NCBI GenBank assembly: GCA_016841625.1
Contig: JAENYU010000016.1
Span: 1 to 39,088, forward strand
Direction: 5' to 3'
Source of the DNA: Methanobacteriota archaeon
Lineage (GTDB): Archaea > Halobacteriota > Methanosarcinia > Methanosarcinales > Methanosarcinaceae
Length of the DNA stretch: 39,088 bases
Shown here: one piece after another, positions 8,895 through 39,088 of the stretch
Layout: each line of letters begins with the position of its first letter
Position numbering within the stretch: position 1 is the first letter of the stretch
Program-made: the position numbers and the translations under genes
Notes under the pieces: generated by a model
What the model was told of the DNA's origin: nothing
The model's database searches: none
What the model saw: only the letters and a program-made list of their open reading frames with translations

Positions 8895-9013
8895 GTTTTC
8901 CCCCCGATTTTTTCCTGCTACCTGTTAATTGGAGAGGCTGGTATTTTTATTTTTTTGCCGGGGGATTTATCCGATCCGGGGACGGAGATTTCTTCGTAAG
9001 GGAAAATGAGACT

Positions 9014-9039
9014 TTAATATTTATAACTTAATATTTATA
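9014..9039. repeat. Direct repeat TTAATATTTATA x2 in the pspA-msvR promoter region
   Basis: Two exact 12-bp copies at 9014-9025 and 9028-9039. They may be alternative TATA elements or part of a regulatory site; they lie 16 bp outside the TTCG/CGAA palindrome. Confidence 0.6.
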
Positions 9040-9054
9040 TATATTAGTCAATTA

Positions 9055-9070
9055 TTCGCAAGCATGCGAA
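9055..9070. promoter_or_regulatory. Palindromic operator TTCG-N8-CGAA, candidate MsvR box
   Basis: TTCGC, six bases, GCGAA: a perfect 5-bp inverted repeat. It sits directly before the TATA box of the downstream V4R regulator. MsvR proteins are reported to bind boxes of this TTCG...CGAA form in their own promoters. Binding here is inferred. Confidence 0.6.
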
Positions 9071-9072
9071 CA

Positions 9073-9082
9073 TTTTATATAT
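9073..9082 (+). promoter_or_regulatory. TATA box of the MsvR-like gene
   Basis: TTTTATATAT centred about 32 bp before the ATG at 9110, predicting a leader of only about 5 nt. That fits the absence of a Shine-Dalgarno site. Confidence 0.5.
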
Positions 9083-9109
9083 CCCAAAAACAACTTATAT
9101 AAAGATATC

Positions 9110-9856
9110 ATGGAAAGGCCTGAGAATAAAACTGAATTTTTTTACACGGAGTCCGGGCTTGTTACGGTGGACAGTCCGGTAAAACTGCAAATTCTCAATC
9201 TCCTCAGGGAAGATTCGAGGTCTTTTGATGAAATCGTAAAATACACGGCAAAGGCAAAGTCCACAATTTCCGTTCACCTCAACAATCTCAAGGCCAGCGA
9301 ACTCCTGGCAGAGATGGCCGACCCTGCCGACCACCGCCGGAAGATCTATTCCCTTAGCTCCCATTACATGGGCTGCTCCCAGAAACCTGTCCATGAACAC
9401 TATAACAGTTTGCTGGGAAAGGTTGCCGAAAACGGGAAAAATGATCGTTTTTCCTTTATGGAATCCGTCTACCATGCTTTACGCTTCGGGTTCGAAGCCT
9501 ACGGTATTGACAATGTCCCGATTGTAAAAAAGATCGGATGCGACATCGGTTTCCACCTTTCATCCGCTTTTGAGTCCGGAACCCCTGAAGAGCTTCTTGA
9601 AGAAGTCGGAAACTTCCTGGAATCCGGGGGAAACGGAAGGCTTTCCATGCTCAAAACCGAACCTCTTTCTCTCCTCATTGAAGACCCCTTCAAGGCCGAG
9701 TCGATGCCCGTTATCGGGAAGCCTTTCTGTGCCCTGAGTGAAGGCATTATAGAGGGGATTCTCTGCGGAAAGCTGGGCAGGGAATTCCGGGTTCAGGAAA
9801 AAGAATGCTACGGGACCGGACACGGCCACTGCATGTTCGAGATTCTGGTGGCCTGA
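9110..9856 (+). CDS. MsvR-family redox-sensing transcriptional regulator (ArsR-type HTH + V4R)
   Basis: 248 residues. Residues about 15-85 form a winged helix-turn-helix (SPVKLQILNLLREDSRSFDEI, then AKAKSTISVHLNNLKASELL), and residues about 105-248 a V4R domain ending GTGHGHCMFEILV. Cysteines lie at 89, 144, 207, 219, 233 and 241; the V4R cysteines are the expected redox switch in MsvR proteins. The architecture is that of MsvR, a methanogen regulator that controls itself and oxidative-stress genes. It is divergent from pspA, and the palindrome at 9055-9070 suggests autoregulation and possibly control of pspA. It could be an MsvR paralogue rather than the characterised orthologue. Confidence 0.8.
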   Translation: MERPENKTEFFYTESGLVTVDSPVKLQILNLLREDSRSFDEIVKYTAKAKSTISVHLNNLKASELLAEMADPADHRRKIYSLSSHYMGCSQKPVHEHYNSLLGKVAENGKNDRFSFMESVYHALRFGFEAYGIDNVPIVKKIGCDIGFHLSSAFESGTPEELLEEVGNFLESGGNGRLSMLKTEPLSLLIEDPFKAESMPVIGKPFCALSEGIIEGILCGKLGREFRVQEKECYGTGHGHCMFEILVA

Positions 9857-9894
9857 TTGCGGGGCATGACAACGGTTCCCTTATGCAGCACCTT

Positions 9895-9950
9895 GATTAC
9901 AGTATCCTGATTACAGTATCCTGATTGCAGAATCCTGATTACAGTACTGA
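9895..9950. repeat. 14-bp tandem repeat, 4 copies
   Basis: GATTACAGTATCCT at 9895 and 9909 exactly, then two diverged copies at 9923 and 9937. It begins 38 bp after the msvR-like stop. Confidence 0.85.
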
Positions 9951-30327: not shown

Positions 30328-31437
30328 ACGGCAAGCAAAGTCTATTTCGCAGGCCTGAGGGCACAAAACCCCGGGGATAACACGATCAGTAAGATTCAGC
30401 GGCTTTTCGACGAGGCAGGTTTTGTCGAACTTTTAGGGGTAGACGACCTGACGGCAATCAAAGTACATTTCGGGGAATACGGAAACGACGGGTACATCAA
30501 CCCGGTCTTCGTCCGGCAGGTTGTGGACAAAATAAAAGCAGCAGGTGCAAAACCTTTTGTCACGGACACAAATACCCTCTATTCAGGGAGCCGGCACAAT
30601 GCCGTGGACCACCTGACAACGGCAATCGAGCACGGGTTTGATTACTCCGTGGTCCGGGCTCCGCTTATCATTTCCGATGGGCTAAAGAGCCAGGACATAG
30701 CGGAGGTCAAGATCCGGCAAAAGCACTTCAAGTCCGTGAAAATCGGGTCCGATATCGTGGCAGCCGATTCCATGGTCGTGATGTCGCATTTCAAGGGGCA
30801 TATCGTGGCAGGCTTCGGAGGGGCAATCAAGAACCTGGCTATGGGCTGTGCCCCTGCTGCCGGGAAAAAGGACCAGCACTACCCGACAAGCCCCCACGTG
30901 GTTGAAGCAAAGTGCATAGCCTGCGGGAAATGCGTGGAAATCTGTCCCGTAGGTGCCGCTTCAATCGAGGGAGATTCATCAAAGATTGATCCTGCCATCT
31001 GCATAAGCTGCGGGCAGTGCATGGAAGTCTGCCCTGAAGACGCCATCGACATCGACTGGGAAAATAACATCCCCGAATTCCTGGAGTGCCTGACAGAATA
31101 CGCCTACGGGGCGGTAAAAGACAAGCAGGGCAGGGTCGGGTACATCAACTTCCTGCTCAAAATAACCCCTGACTGCGACTGTGTGCCCTGGAGTGACGCC
31201 CCTATCGTGCCTGATATCGGAATCCTCGCTTCGATGGACCCGGTTGCCCTGGACCAGGCAAGCTACGACCTCGTGAACAAGCAGAAGGGACTGATTGGCT
31301 CTTCCCTGCAGTGCAACCATGAAGCCGGAGCTGACAAGTTCAGAGGGGTCTGGGAAAAAGTCGACGGGACCCACCAGCTTGAGTACGGGGAAAAGATCGG
31401 GCTTGGCAGCCGGGATTACGAATTGGTTGAAATTTGA
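30328..31437 (+). CDS. DUF362 protein with two [4Fe-4S] ferredoxin motifs (ACG start?)
   Basis: About 369 residues if read from ACG 30328 (ACG-GCA-AGC-AAA-GTC-TAT). The DUF362 fold begins at once (SKVYFAGLRAQNPGDN) and continues through IKVHFGEYGNDGYINPVFVR, so an internal GTG at 30523 would cut off about 65 conserved residues. A 2[4Fe-4S] domain follows: CIACGKCVEICPVGAASIEG and CISCGQCMEVCPEDAIDI. It probably carries electrons or supports metal-centre assembly; the family has no firm function. The odd start could be a sequencing error of ATG or true non-standard initiation. AmrS lies 229 bp downstream. Confidence 0.85.
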   Translation, partial: TASKVYFAGLRAQNPGDNTISKIQRLFDEAGFVELLGVDDLTAIKVHFGEYGNDGYINPVFVRQVVDKIKAAGAKPFVTDTNTLYSGSRHNAVDHLTTAIEHGFDYSVVRAPLIISDGLKSQDIAEVKIRQKHFKSVKIGSDIVAADSMVVMSHFKGHIVAGFGGAIKNLAMGCAPAAGKKDQHYPTSPHVVEAKCIACGKCVEICPVGAASIEGDSSKIDPAICISCGQCMEVCPEDAIDIDWENNIPEFLECLTEYAYGAVKDKQGRVGYINFLLKITPDCDCVPWSDAPIVPDIGILASMDPVALDQASYDLVNKQKGLIGSSLQCNHEAGADKFRGVWEKVDGTHQLEYGEKIGLGSRDYELVEI

Positions 31438-31521: not shown

Positions 31522-31615
31522 TTTTCAGGATTTTTGTGGTTTTTAAATGCTTTTTCAGGATTTGTGAGACTTGTGAACGTTTTTTCAGGATTTTTGTGAT
31601 TTGTGAACATTTCCG
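31522..31615. repeat. About 29-bp repeat, 3 copies, T-rich
   Basis: Units open TTTTCAGGATTTTTGTG and end near GTGAAC(A/G); after the DUF362 gene, before amrS1. T-runs may also terminate transcription. Confidence 0.7.
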
Positions 31616-31665: not shown

Positions 31666-32691
31666 ATGATTCACGAGGCAATGTTTTACGAAAAGCTCAG
31701 GGACAATGAGGTACGCTGCTCCCTTTGTTCCCACCGCTGCAAAATAACCGCCGGAAAGCGGGGTATCTGCGGGGTCCGGGAAAACTGTGAAGGCAGCCTT
31801 TTTTCCCTTGTTTACGGCTCTGTTGCGAGTGAGGGCATAGCCCATATCGAACAAAAGCCTCTCTACCACTACTTCCCCGGCTCTTTAGCGTATTCTGTGG
31901 GGACCGTCGGCTGCAATTTCCGCTGCAGGCACTGCCAGAACTGGAGGCTTTCCCAAACCACCCTCGAAGAAGCTCATGTGGCAACCCTTAGTCCCTACCA
32001 GCTTGTCCAGCAGGCAAAGATGATGGGGTGCCAGTCGGTTTCCTGGACCTACAATGAACCCACTGTCTGGTACGAGTACAGCTATGAAGGGGCGAAGCTT
32101 GCAAAGGATGCGGGCCTTGGGACAAGCTACGTGACAAACGGGTACATAACGCCTGAAGCCCTCGAACACATCGCTCCTTACCTGGACGCTTTCAGCGTTG
32201 ACATCAAAGCTTTTACCGAAGAGTTCTACCGGGAGGTTTGCAGTGCAAAACTTGCTCCTGTACTCGAGACAACAAAACTTGCAAAAAAACTCGGGGTCCA
32301 CGTGGAAGTTGTTAACCTTATTATTCCCACCCGAAACGATTCTCCTGATGAGCTTCGGGAACTTTCCCGCTGGGTCTACGAAAACCTGGGAAAGGACACT
32401 CCTCTTCATTTTAACCGCTTCCACCCCCACTATAAAATGAAAGACCTGCCCCCCACATCCGTGAAAACCCTTGACCAGGCACGTGCGATTGCTCTTGAGG
32501 AAGGGATGCGTTTTGTCTACGTGGGAAATGTACCAGGGCATCCGCACGAGAATACTTTCTGTCCCGAATGCGGGACTTTGCTGATTGCAAGAGGATTTTT
32601 CGAGGTCCAGGAATATAATATAACGCCTGAAAAGACCTGCCCTAAATGTGGGGAGTTGATTCCGATTGTCGGAGAATATCCAGGGCACTGA
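31666..32691 (+). CDS. amrS: AmmeMemoRadiSam-system radical SAM enzyme (copy 1)
   Basis: 341 residues. N-terminal Cys-rich block CSLCSHRCKITAGKRGICGVREN, then the radical SAM cluster motif C-x3-C-x2-C (CNFRCRHCQNW), TYNEPTVWYEYSYE, and NLIIPTRNDSPDELRE late. The end has a zinc-ribbon-like pair CPECG...CPKCG. AmrS proteins are radical SAM enzymes linked with AMMECR1 and Memo homologues; the substrate is not known. AGGAAT precedes the ATG. A close paralogue lies at 35789-36826, and neither AMMECR1 nor Memo is in this window. Confidence 0.9.
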   Translation: MIHEAMFYEKLRDNEVRCSLCSHRCKITAGKRGICGVRENCEGSLFSLVYGSVASEGIAHIEQKPLYHYFPGSLAYSVGTVGCNFRCRHCQNWRLSQTTLEEAHVATLSPYQLVQQAKMMGCQSVSWTYNEPTVWYEYSYEGAKLAKDAGLGTSYVTNGYITPEALEHIAPYLDAFSVDIKAFTEEFYREVCSAKLAPVLETTKLAKKLGVHVEVVNLIIPTRNDSPDELRELSRWVYENLGKDTPLHFNRFHPHYKMKDLPPTSVKTLDQARAIALEEGMRFVYVGNVPGHPHENTFCPECGTLLIARGFFEVQEYNITPEKTCPKCGELIPIVGEYPGH

Positions 32692-32797: not shown

Positions 32798-34786
32798 TCA
32801 ATTGCCTTCCCTTTTGAACTTGATTTTGAATTCAGTTCCGCTGTCCCTTTTGAGTTCGATGCAGCCTTCTATTTGTTCCACGAGAATTTTTACAAGCTGG
32901 AGCCCAAGAGAATCCGTATTTTTGAAATCGATTTTTTCAGGAAAGCCCTTCCCGTCATCGGCTACACTCAAAGTAAACTGCAGGTCCTTTTCACCTTCTA
33001 TTTCGTAATTCTCCGGTCCGAAAAGGCTTATCCGGATTTCTCCGGCTTTTCCTGCAGGGAAGGCGTGTTTCAGGGAATTCGAAACAAGCTCGTTTACAAT
33101 AATACCAAGAGGGACTGCAGTATCCATTCCCAGATAAAGCTGCTCAATGTCCAGTTTCAGGCTAACCCTCTCATTCCCGACGGTATACGAACTGAAAAGT
33201 TCTGAAGTCAGCTCCTGGAGATAAGCTGCAAAATCGAGGGTTTCCATATCCTTTCCCTGGTAAAGTTCTTCGTGAATCAAAGCCATGGAAGCTACGCGAT
33301 TCTGGCTTTCCCGAAATGCCTCAAGGGTTTCTTTATCGCTGAACTTTTCCGCCTGGAGGCTGAGTAGCGAGGAGATCACCTGCAGATTATTTTTAATCCT
33401 GTGATGGATCTCTTTTATGCGGGCTTCATCGGTTCTGGAAAGGGTTTTTTCGGCCATCTTACGTTGAGTGATATCATGAACAAAGCCCTGGAATTTCCCT
33501 GGAATTCCGGAATTTTTGGGAAGGAGCTGCATAATTTCCCTGACCCATCTTATTTCCCCGTCTTTTCTCCGTATCCTGTATTCCAGCTCAAGAGCGGAAT
33601 CGGGGTTAGACTCCGCATTTTTCAGGTTTTCAAGAAACAATGGCCGGTCTTCAGGTTCGACTATTTCGGCCCACTTCCCCTTCCCGGACATGAAGGCCTT
33701 TTTGCTGTAAGCTGTGATCTCTTCCACCGCCCCGTCCATGAATACCGGAGTACCTTTCTCGTCAAGCCGAAAGCCTATGAGTCCCTGGATGTTCCGCACG
33801 AATGAGCTGTATTGTTCTGTTTTTGCTTGCATTTCCACAACCGGAAGTTCACCGGCAGCTGTACATTTCTCTACTCCAAGCATCCTGTAAATTCGGCCCT
33901 GGTCGTCCTTAAGAAAAGTAGTTTCTCTCCTCAGGGCTTCTTCTCTGAATTTAAGTTCCCTGAAAAGAAGGTTGCAGGGCTCTTCAAAGCCTGTTTCCAC
34001 AATCGCCATATAAATCAGGTAAAAAGACAAAACGTTAAATGTGTGCCCTATAAAGTTGAAAACCTCTTCTGTGTATGTGTAGTTGGTAAGGGACAGTTCC
34101 GCGAAGATGGATACTGTTATGGCTGCCATAAGTATCCTGAAAACCTTTTTTTCGAATCTGTCCCTTTTTCGATACAGGAGGAACAGTGAAGCGATAAATA
34201 AGAAAGAGATAATATACTCGCTGAAGATTTTAAATTTAGTAAGCCCAAAACCTTCTACATAACAGGCGGGGAAGTTCCTGTAATGGAAAATTGAAAGCAG
34301 GAAAACTGCCGTAATTAAAGCATATACAAAGAACACTTCCCAGCCAAACTGGTCATTTCCGGTGGGTTTTGAGTCCATTTTCTCATTCTTTGCAACACCT
34401 GTCAAAAGCAGCGGAGCTACAAAAAAGGAGACACCTCCGAGGTATCTCATAGCTATCCAGAGTTGTGCCGGAAGGTTTGCACCAAAACCACTAAACACGT
34501 TTATTTCTTCATATGAAAACGAGCGTAAAAAACCAAGACATGCTATGAAAAAGAGTGCTGTCCCTATAAATGTAAGGTATCGGTTTTCCGAAACGACTTT
34601 TGATTTCCATACTATTATGAAAACCATGTAAGCTATAATGACATTGAACTGGTTTACCACGATTCGAAAGAGCAGGTAGTTCTCAAGACTGATCACATAA
34701 AGCACACCTGCTATGATCAGGAATAACCCCAGCTTGATAAAAGAAGGTCTAATGGTTATGTTATAATTTATCTGCTCACATCGCAT
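32798..34786 (-). CDS. Membrane sensor histidine kinase (MASE3-like, PAS, HisKA_2)
   Basis: 662 residues. Residues about 15-290 hold several membrane spans of a MASE3-like sensor (LWIAMRYLGGVSFFVAPLLL; YRNFPACYVEGFGLTKFKIFSE is the conserved loop, quoted in part). A PAS domain with PAC (EYRIRRKDGEIRWVRE) occupies about 325-440. The HisKA_2 phosphorylation helix EIHHRIKNNLQVISSLLSL has its His near 461-462. The ATPase domain has N-box NELVSNSLKHA (about 565-575) and DDGKGF (about 610). No response regulator is adjacent, so the partner is elsewhere. The signal is unknown. It is convergent with amrS copy 1. Confidence 0.92.
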   Translation of the reverse strand: MRCEQINYNITIRPSFIKLGLFLIIAGVLYVISLENYLLFRIVVNQFNVIIAYMVFIIVWKSKVVSENRYLTFIGTALFFIACLGFLRSFSYEEINVFSGFGANLPAQLWIAMRYLGGVSFFVAPLLLTGVAKNEKMDSKPTGNDQFGWEVFFVYALITAVFLLSIFHYRNFPACYVEGFGLTKFKIFSEYIISFLFIASLFLLYRKRDRFEKKVFRILMAAITVSIFAELSLTNYTYTEEVFNFIGHTFNVLSFYLIYMAIVETGFEEPCNLLFRELKFREEALRRETTFLKDDQGRIYRMLGVEKCTAAGELPVVEMQAKTEQYSSFVRNIQGLIGFRLDEKGTPVFMDGAVEEITAYSKKAFMSGKGKWAEIVEPEDRPLFLENLKNAESNPDSALELEYRIRRKDGEIRWVREIMQLLPKNSGIPGKFQGFVHDITQRKMAEKTLSRTDEARIKEIHHRIKNNLQVISSLLSLQAEKFSDKETLEAFRESQNRVASMALIHEELYQGKDMETLDFAAYLQELTSELFSSYTVGNERVSLKLDIEQLYLGMDTAVPLGIIVNELVSNSLKHAFPAGKAGEIRISLFGPENYEIEGEKDLQFTLSVADDGKGFPEKIDFKNTDSLGLQLVKILVEQIEGCIELKRDSGTEFKIKFKREGN

Positions 34787-34947
34787 CCTAATTTATATCT
34801 GTTATTAATTGTATAAGATATTGCCGACTTATATATATTTGCTAGCGATGAATATCCGGATAAGCACTCCAGCTTACACAAAACCATTGAGGTCTAATAG
34901 ATCTTTTCAGTGATCGAAACGTAACTACTGTTTATTTTCGATAGTAT

Positions 34948-35095
34948 CATGTTGCTCTTCAAATGGATGCATGCAACGTTGACATCAAACTTTTTAGCGA
35001 AGAATCCTGGTACTATGTCGCAAGTGCAAAGCTTGCTCTCTGTTTTTCAAATTTTCCTGCCTTGCGAAAAAGTTTTGGTTCAATGTGGAAATAAT
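34948..35095 (+). pseudogene. Remnant of a third AmrS radical-SAM gene
   Basis: 34948-35037 translates to HVALQMDACNVDIKLFSEES, then WYYVASAKLA, which aligns without gaps to residues 168-197 of copy 2 with 18 identities in 30. After a 2-nt insertion, 35066-35095 continues in another frame as LAKKFWFNVEI, against LAKKLGIHVEI. So a segment of about 48 codons survives from a copy that lacks the N-terminal radical SAM motif. It is closer to copy 2 (VASAKLA) than to copy 1. An 18-bp array follows directly. Confidence 0.8.
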
Positions 35096-35098
35096 GCC

Positions 35099-35152
35099 CC
35101 GGATCAATGCAAGAACCCGGATCAATGCAAGAACCCGGATCAATGCAAGAAT
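35099..35152. repeat. 18-bp tandem repeat, 3 copies
   Basis: CCGGATCAATGCAAGAAC three times (last with one change), directly after the amrS remnant. The first copy faces the PTRNDSP codons of intact copies (ACCCGGATCAAT against ACCCGAAACGAT), so the unit may have expanded from that segment. Confidence 0.9.
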
Positions 35153-35323
35153 GATGAATATGCAAGTACGTATAAAATTTGAAGCGTACTAAATTTGAAA
35201 AATCTTTATGCTCAATTTTAGTTGATTTAATCTCAAATCTATTTTTTAAAAAGGTACATATAGCACATATCCTGTTTTAATATATGGGTTAATGTTATCC
35301 AACTTTACTGGAGATGATGGTTC

Positions 35324-35509
35324 ATGAATGTCTGGGAATATGATATTAAAGCTGTTAGGTTCAGTGATCTATCAAATACGAAAGAAGACCTCAATAGTCT
35401 GGGGGTTGAAGGCTGGGAACTGATCAAGTTTGCTGACGAAATGGATGAAGACGGCATGGTAAACGCTGTTTTCAAAAGACCGGTCGATTACGTTGATTCG
35501 GCGTTCTGA
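35324..35509 (+). CDS. DUF4177-like small protein
   Basis: 61 residues: MNVWEYDIKAV at the start, then LNSLGVEGWELIKFADE and NAVFKRPV, the WEY...GxEGWEL...FKR pattern of small DUF4177 proteins. The function is unknown. A GGAG lies about 12 nt before the ATG. It stands alone between the amrS remnant and amrS copy 2. Confidence 0.75.
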   Translation: MNVWEYDIKAVRFSDLSNTKEDLNSLGVEGWELIKFADEMDEDGMVNAVFKRPVDYVDSAF

Positions 35510-35594
35510 ATTTTGTGGCAGATTCTATTATTTTTGGTCCAATTTAGACTCATTATTCCCCTTGATTAAATATTTCCCCTTGCTTCACTATTGA

Positions 35595-35630
35595 TTCCTG
35601 ATTCACTATTGATTCCTGATTTTTTTATTT
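35595..35630. repeat. 18-bp direct repeat, 2 copies
   Basis: CACTATTGATTCCTGATT twice near 35587-35621, after the small DUF4177-like gene. Confidence 0.7.
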
Positions 35631-35788
35631 TCCCTCCACCCACTTTTATAAGCATATCCTTATTAACTTCCTTCCTTCGTTATTTTCATCATCTATAAAG
35701 GCGTAAGCTTCATAGGGGATTTAATAATCGTTCACTGCAACGGCCATACTATGAGTCATTTATGTAAAAATTAATAAAGTGTGTGCGC

Positions 35789-36826
35789 ATGATCCGTGAA
35801 GCCATGTTCTACGAGAAACTCGATGCCGATAAGGTCCAGTGCAAACTCTGCGCCCATGGGTGCAAAATAGCTCCCGGAAAAAGGGGGTTTTGCAGAGTTC
35901 GGGAAAACCGGGGTGGAGACCTGTATACCCTGATCTACGGCTCTGTCTCCAGCGAAGCTGTGGACCCGATTGAAAAGAAGCCGCTGTACCATTTTTACCC
36001 GGGTTCGTTTGCGTATTCCGTCGGGACCGTCGGGTGCAACTTCCGCTGCAAGCACTGCCAGAACTGGACGATTTCCCAGACCTGTGTGGAAGATTCCTTT
36101 ACCAGGGATATTCTCCCCGAAGACCTGGTGGGAAGGGCGCTTATGTCGGGGGCGAAGTCCATCGCCTGGACTTATAACGAGCCTACGATCTGGCATGAGT
36201 ACAGCTATGAAAGTGCGAAACTTGCAAAGGAAGCGGGCCTGGGAACGGTTTACGTTACAAACGGGTACATGACCCCAGACGCTCTCAAACATATAGCTCC
36301 CTACCTTGATGCCGCCAACATTGACATCAAGGCGTTTACCGAGGAATTCTACCACGATGTCGCAAGCGCAAAACTGGCTCCAGTGCTCGAGTCTTCAGCC
36401 CTTGCAAAGAAGCTCGGGATCCATGTGGAAATCACTAACCTGGTCATCCCCACCCGAAACGATTCCCCTGACGAGCTCCGGGAACTTTCCAGCTGGGTCT
36501 ACAAGAACCTTGGTCCCGACACTCCCCTCCATTTCACCCGCTTCCAGCCCCAGTACCAGATGCAGGACCTCTCTCCTACCCCCGTAGAGACCCTCGAGAC
36601 GGCCTACGAAATAGCAATTGAAGAGGGGATGAATTACGTCTATGTCGGAAACGTTTTCGGGCACGAGCATGATAACACCTTCTGTCCCAACTGCGGAAAA
36701 ATGCTGATTCAACGCGGGCTCTTCGAAATCGAAAAATATGAGGTCACCAATGAAAAGACCTGCCCGAAGTGCGGGGAAAAGATCCCGATTGTGGTAGAAT
36801 ATGCGGGTTCAAGATACGAACCCTGA
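35789..36826 (+). CDS. amrS: AmmeMemoRadiSam-system radical SAM enzyme (copy 2)
   Basis: 345 residues from ATG 35789; a GTG at 35783 is in frame, but the paralogue also begins M-I-x-EAMFYEKL. Motifs: CKLCAHGCKIAPGKRGFCRV, the radical SAM cluster CNFRCKHCQNW (Cys 83, 87, 90), TYNEPTIWHEYSYE, NLVIPTRNDSPDELRE, and the end pair CPNCG...CPKCG. The two intact copies share long identical runs. Function as for copy 1, with an unknown substrate; the two may differ in partner or substrate. Confidence 0.9.
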   Translation: MIREAMFYEKLDADKVQCKLCAHGCKIAPGKRGFCRVRENRGGDLYTLIYGSVSSEAVDPIEKKPLYHFYPGSFAYSVGTVGCNFRCKHCQNWTISQTCVEDSFTRDILPEDLVGRALMSGAKSIAWTYNEPTIWHEYSYESAKLAKEAGLGTVYVTNGYMTPDALKHIAPYLDAANIDIKAFTEEFYHDVASAKLAPVLESSALAKKLGIHVEITNLVIPTRNDSPDELRELSSWVYKNLGPDTPLHFTRFQPQYQMQDLSPTPVETLETAYEIAIEEGMNYVYVGNVFGHEHDNTFCPNCGKMLIQRGLFEIEKYEVTNEKTCPKCGEKIPIVVEYAGSRYEP

Positions 36827-38870: not shown

Positions 38871-39006
38871 GATTACTGTCTTTACACTGCACTTGAATAA
38901 ATATATTAATATCGGAACAGAATATTACATTCACTCCCGAAGCTACTTCACGGATATTCCTGCGGTCCCTTATAGGATATTATAAGGATATGGGTACGGA
39001 ATAAAA

Positions 39007-39088
39007 GAAAGTGAATAAGAAGAAAGTGAATAAGAAGAAAGTGAATAAGAAGAAAGTGAATAAGAAGAAAGTGAATAAGAAGAAAGTG
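39007..39088. repeat. 15-bp tandem repeat, 5.5 exact copies, runs off the window
   Basis: GAAAGTGAATAAGAA repeated without change from 39007 to the end. The perfect copies suggest recent expansion or a still active array. Confidence 0.95.

Follow-up and report, generated by a model that had tools for sequence, protein, structure and literature searches.

The short interval between the sensor-kinase gene and the small-protein (Sp36 family) gene of this Methanosarcinaceae locus contains a stretch of 148 bases that sequence comparison confirms as a decayed extra copy of amrS. The most probable account of it, to which we assign a likelihood of roughly 80%, is that it is an ordinary, non-functional relic: an amrS gene would have been duplicated, the copy beside the kinase deleted down to a stub, and the stub left to drift. 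Throughout, 'the window' denotes the whole stretch of DNA that was analysed, 39,088 nt in length.

Gene neighbourhood of the relic

The window carries, in order, g304, AmrS copy 1, the divergent kinase, the relic, the Sp36 family gene, AmrS copy 2, two TatA genes and TatC (Table 1). The start of copy 2 is taken as the ATG, the ORF tool listing a GTG at 35783 upstream of it, and proteins of the Memo and AMMECR1 families are encoded elsewhere in the same genome. The small protein sP36 is described as an inhibitor of the ammonium transporter AmtB1 in M. mazei (PMC10714827). Two tandem arrays lie apart from the relic, one of a 30-bp unit (x 2.9) at 31522-31608, before copy 1, and one of a 15-bp unit (x 6.1) at 38999-39088, which reaches the end of the window.

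Table 1. Features of the window around the amrS relic
Feature	Coordinates	Strand	Basis
g304, DUF362 with 4Fe-4S domains	at 30523
AmrS copy 1, intact	31666..32691	+	TIGR04337, 356.6 bits (cut-off 220)
MASE3-PAS-HisKA_2 sensor histidine kinase, divergent from relic	32798..34786	-	Pfam
Kinase-relic spacer	34787..34947		kinase-proximal part homologous to the G103 kinase-copy 2 spacer (blastn)
amrS relic, codons about 168-215, frame disruption near 35035-35040	34948..35095	+	tblastn/blastn, shuffles, orthologous relics in G003 and G002
18-bp tandem array, 3 copies	35098..35151		TRF; alignment (one copy in G003, G002)
Sp36 family small-protein gene, directly downstream of relic	35324..35509	+	NF053529, E 4.2e-23
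AmrS copy 2, intact	35789..36826	+	TIGR04337, 387.1 bits

Two further observations concern the DNA on either side of sp36. The block upstream of it (35205-35323) is strongly conserved, with 41-47 nt around CAAATCTATTTTTTAAAAAGGTACATATAG matching at 80-91% in several other genera, and it precedes sp36 at each of the five loci inspected (G023, G004, G033, G017 and G010); it is probably a promoter or leader. On the far side, in 35510-35788, copy 2 of the window is without most of an upstream element that is common to copy 2 of G003, KYL-1, STD2_179, G023 and G103, just 22-49 nt around the start matching that element. Because most of the shared element is missing, the copy 2 promoter may have been replaced when copy 2 came to adjoin sp36.

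Homology to AmrS and loss of the reading frame

Both intact AmrS copies were compared with the 531-nt interval 34800-35330. The sequence-only reading had staked its claim on a significant tblastn match of AmrS here, and such a match is present: copy 2 scores 40.4 bits (E 8e-10), with 22 of 44 columns identical across residues 170-212 (347-aa numbering) and one gap, and copy 1 scores 34.7 bits (E 9e-8). At the nucleotide level the relic is identical to copy 2 at 91 of 127 positions (72%; blastn, E 3e-13), and when the whole genome is searched with copy 2 the relic ranks third (E 1.7e-4), after copy 2 itself and copy 1. Translated in the AmrS frame, 34948-35037 gives HVALQMDACNVDIKLFSEESWYYVASAKLA, in which 18 of 30 residues are identical to residues 168-197 of copy 2 (counted from the ATG at 35789), exactly the number given in the earlier reading. 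Its observation that further codons match after a 2-nt shift also holds, the relic reading SCLAKKFWFNVEI past a net shift of that size and agreeing with copy 2 at 8 of 13 residues, until AmrS homology stops near 35093-35095. That the likeness arose by chance, an idea for which the small number of participating codons (about 48) might be cited, has a negligible probability and is refuted by the E values within the interval, by 2,000 dinucleotide shuffles of it, none of which approached the relic score (maximum 24.3 bits with copy 2, 26.9 with copy 1), and by the presence of the same relic in two other species.

The sole NCBIfam match of the relic peptides is TIGR04337, at positions 168-192 (30-aa query) and 169-204 (43-aa query), with scores of 16.2 and 15.5 bits, far below the cut-off of 220. 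Whereas copies 1 and 2 are full members of this AmrS family, the relic, although its only match falls in the same model, is a fragment with a broken frame and without the radical SAM motif. This motif, CxxxCxxC, appears in the intact copies as CNFRCRHC (copy 1) and CNFRCKHC (copy 2), and its absence from the relic, correctly noted from the sequence alone, reflects the fact that the surviving codons all lie downstream of it. The accompanying statement that the frame with an ATG is a false one stands in part: a 77-aa ORF at 34949-35182 that also covers the relic is indeed out of the AmrS frame, and has no match in NCBIfam, but the AmrS frame has an ATG of its own at 34963, which opens an ORF of 43 aa.

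Between the window and G003, a second genome of the genus, substitutions within 34948-35034 are distributed 9/4/4 over AmrS codon positions 1/2/3, unlike those of the intact copy 2 (14/8/80), so that the relic is not a gene for an AmrS-like protein. Homology to a functional paralog above chance, a frame disabled by stops and indels, and this lack of AmrS coding constraint together mark it as a pseudogene.

Conservation of the relic within the genus

The comparison within the genus covered the genome of the window and three others (G001, G002 and G003). The interval from kinase through relic to sp36 is present in G003 and G002, where it is about 69-70% identical to the window; the relic has the same place between kinase and sp36, its ends coincide in all three genomes, and its AmrS frame in G003 and G002 is interrupted by stops and indels. 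As the same relic, with the same ends and place, recurs in two of the three other genomes, the death of the gene predates their split. A longer or intact amrS at this spot, which had been suggested as something to look for in related strains, was found in none of the three: two carry the same relic, and in G001 copy 1 runs directly into the sp36 upstream block, with neither kinase nor relic.

The alignments also bear on how the gene was lost. No more than codons 168 to 215 or so survive, so that large deletions did most of the damage. The proposal that copies at this locus are lost by frameshift and repeat growth is not borne out. The unit of the 18-bp array, which is not AmrS sequence, is single in G003 and G002 and triplicated in the window only, so that the repeat grew after the death of the gene, in the window lineage alone.

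In the gene tree the branches of copy 1 and copy 2 both take the form (window,(G003,(G001,G002))), which, with the block lacking in G001, means that either G001 lost it or G002 regained it. G002 and G003 are 98.1% identical in the kinase, 97.6% in the spacer with the relic and 100% in sp36, against 91% in g304 and 87% in copy 1 to the left. This difference, 98-100% for the block and 87-91% for its neighbours (L064, L072; G003/G002), points to recombination of the segment from kinase to sp36, which on these identities has likely passed between lineages; it is possible that G002 regained the kinase-relic-sp36 block.

Gene order beyond the genus

The most informative relative is G103, in which an ortholog of the kinase (L194 6552-8672, minus strand) and an intact copy 2 (8912-9937, plus strand) are arranged divergently, 240 bp apart. 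The spacer aligns to that of G103 by blastn with 65% identity over 181 positions for the window and 75% over 136 for G003, both alignments taking in the first 60 nt of the kinase coding sequence. The G103 pair resembles the window in its orthologous kinase, in the homologous kinase-proximal part of the spacer and in having amrS on the same side and strand; it differs in that an intact copy 2 stands beside the kinase, where the window has the relic, and its copy 2 beyond sp36.

Other relatives retain parts of this arrangement. In G111 a kinase scrap (residues 45-130; L223 16702-16962) lies just before AmrS copy 2, and in G023, G109 and G120 the kinase is found between sp36 and copy 2, at about 2, 16 and 12 kb from copy 2, respectively. 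A contig end of Methanosarcina sp. KYL-1 (L078 111-630) holds a 5' piece of the kinase, the kinase-amrS spacer and the first eight amrS codons, the kinase gene being broken into residues 1-66 on L078 and 61-662 on another contig. The KYL-1 spacer and amrS start are 79% identical to G103 over 326 nt, and homology ends after the eight codons; some 9 kb from this stub KYL-1 has an intact copy 2 with a similar upstream region of its own. Since the stub region matches the start of that copy 2 at 82 of 123 positions, the two are not a recent duplication. Taken together, these relatives indicate a usual order of g304, (copy 1), sp36, kinase, copy 2 and tat, compared with which kinase and relic are on the opposite flank of sp36 in the genus of the window.

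Surplus amrS copies have been lost elsewhere as well. In a search for further amrS scraps in 20 stretches between neighbouring genes of 12 genomes (E <= 0.01), the only one recovered was a decayed AmrS copy 1 between g304 and sp36 of G109 (L195 11691-12358), whose codons 1-223 lie in two frames and include a stop. This relic and the eight-codon start in KYL-1 are like the window relic in being what is left of surplus copies, but they involve other copies or parts and have other breakpoints.

Origin of the relic

Because the relic is placed and oriented as is the intact amrS of G103, and copy 2 of the window lies with the tat genes, duplication followed by loss on the kinase side is the simplest reading. 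The ancestor would have had a divergent pair of kinase (minus strand) and amrS (plus strand), as G103 has at present, and duplication of amrS would have left one copy beside the kinase and another, today's copy 2, beside the tat genes. In an order of events that we infer, the kinase-side copy would then have lost its first 167 or so codons with part of the preceding spacer by deletion, and about 130 codons from its end, deletions that brought the stub up against the sequence preceding sp36, before frame-disrupting indels and substitutions accumulated in what was left. A possible route to the gene order of the window is an unequal exchange in which copies 1 and 2 acted as direct repeats, after which the first sp36 and the second kinase would have been lost. 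A search for the traces of a lost sp36 or kinase that this predicts gave none that convince, its two short kinase matches being the kinase's own end and one in STD2_179 (E 0.01), which leaves unequal exchange as a step that we infer.

As to the parent, the relics join all copy 2 genes in the gene tree with support of 91/83, but a position beside copy 1 is not rejected (p-AU 0.166), so that membership with copy 2 is favoured, not proven. The 12 diagnostic sites in the relic do not decide between the two, dividing into five of copy 2, four of copy 1 and three of neither.

The observations behind duplication and kinase-side loss are the homology itself, a position and ends common to three species, the adjacency of kinase and amrS in G103 and the lack of a conserved AmrS frame, to which may be added the G111 kinase scrap beside copy 2 and the KYL-1 fragment of kinase, spacer and amrS start. 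Counted against it are the shortness of the relic, with copy 1 not rejected as its relative, the missing second sp36 or kinase scrap, a 70-nt core conserved beyond what simple decay predicts, and the state of G001, which is without kinase and relic though its two AmrS copies fall with their G002 counterparts. With these caveats, the earlier claim that the locus or its ancestor once held three amrS copies, the third now decayed, is upheld; its alternative suggestion, that a copy moved, may also hold.

The reading that competes most closely, although we judge it unlikely, is that there was never a complete third copy, and that a stray piece of copy 1 or 2 recombined in, together with the kinase, between copy 1 and sp36. 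Such an event would fit the occurrence of kinase and relic together in three of the four genomes of the genus and the absence of both from the fourth, as well as the near identity of the G002 and G003 blocks, which seem to have been moved by recombination. It fits less well with G103, where this flank of the kinase is followed immediately by a complete amrS, and with a relic that lies on that very side and in the same orientation, as expected of a deletion product.

Possible function of the conserved core

The core of the relic (34967-35037) is identical at 61 of 70 sites between the window and G003, above its flanks and at a level reached by 14 of 5,000 shuffles; with the test widened to 90 nt the count is 118 of 5,000, and narrowed to 50 nt it is 1,328 of 5,000. 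This raises the idea that the relic has been taken into use, the core serving, between kinase and sp36, either as an element at the DNA or RNA level or as a short ORF out of frame. The +1 frame lends it some colour, as third-position changes make up 5 of 10 between the window and G003 and 3 of 3 between G003 and G002 (8 of 13 together, in one of three frames inspected), but in that frame two changed codons between the window and G003 are synonymous and five non-synonymous, and the ends of the ORF differ among the window, G003 and G002. Moreover, differences between G003 and G002 are no fewer in the core (3 of 70 sites) than in the flanks (7 of 176 and 2 of 131), so that no recent constraint is visible; scanning the whole window for RNA families gave nothing, and neither strand shows an unusual fold (z -0.38 to -0.02). 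Co-option of the core is thus very improbable, and there is equally slim reason to think that a kept core or short out-of-frame ORF tunes the divergent expression of the sensor kinase and the nitrogen-linked sP36; on these comparisons, a function of the relic is not supported.

Significance

By itself the find is of slight significance, being the ordinary remnant of a gene that was duplicated and then lost, and none of the papers listed in literature searches on AmrS, radical SAM proteins and Methanosarcina pseudogenes deals with it. For annotators it carries a warning that the 77-aa ORF overlies a pseudogene. The pairing of kinase and amrS in G103 is a clue to possible co-regulation partners of AmrS copy 2, and the relic documents the gain and loss of copies in the small AmrS paralog family of the Methanosarcinaceae, found here in the vicinity of sp36, the tat genes and a divergent sensor kinase.
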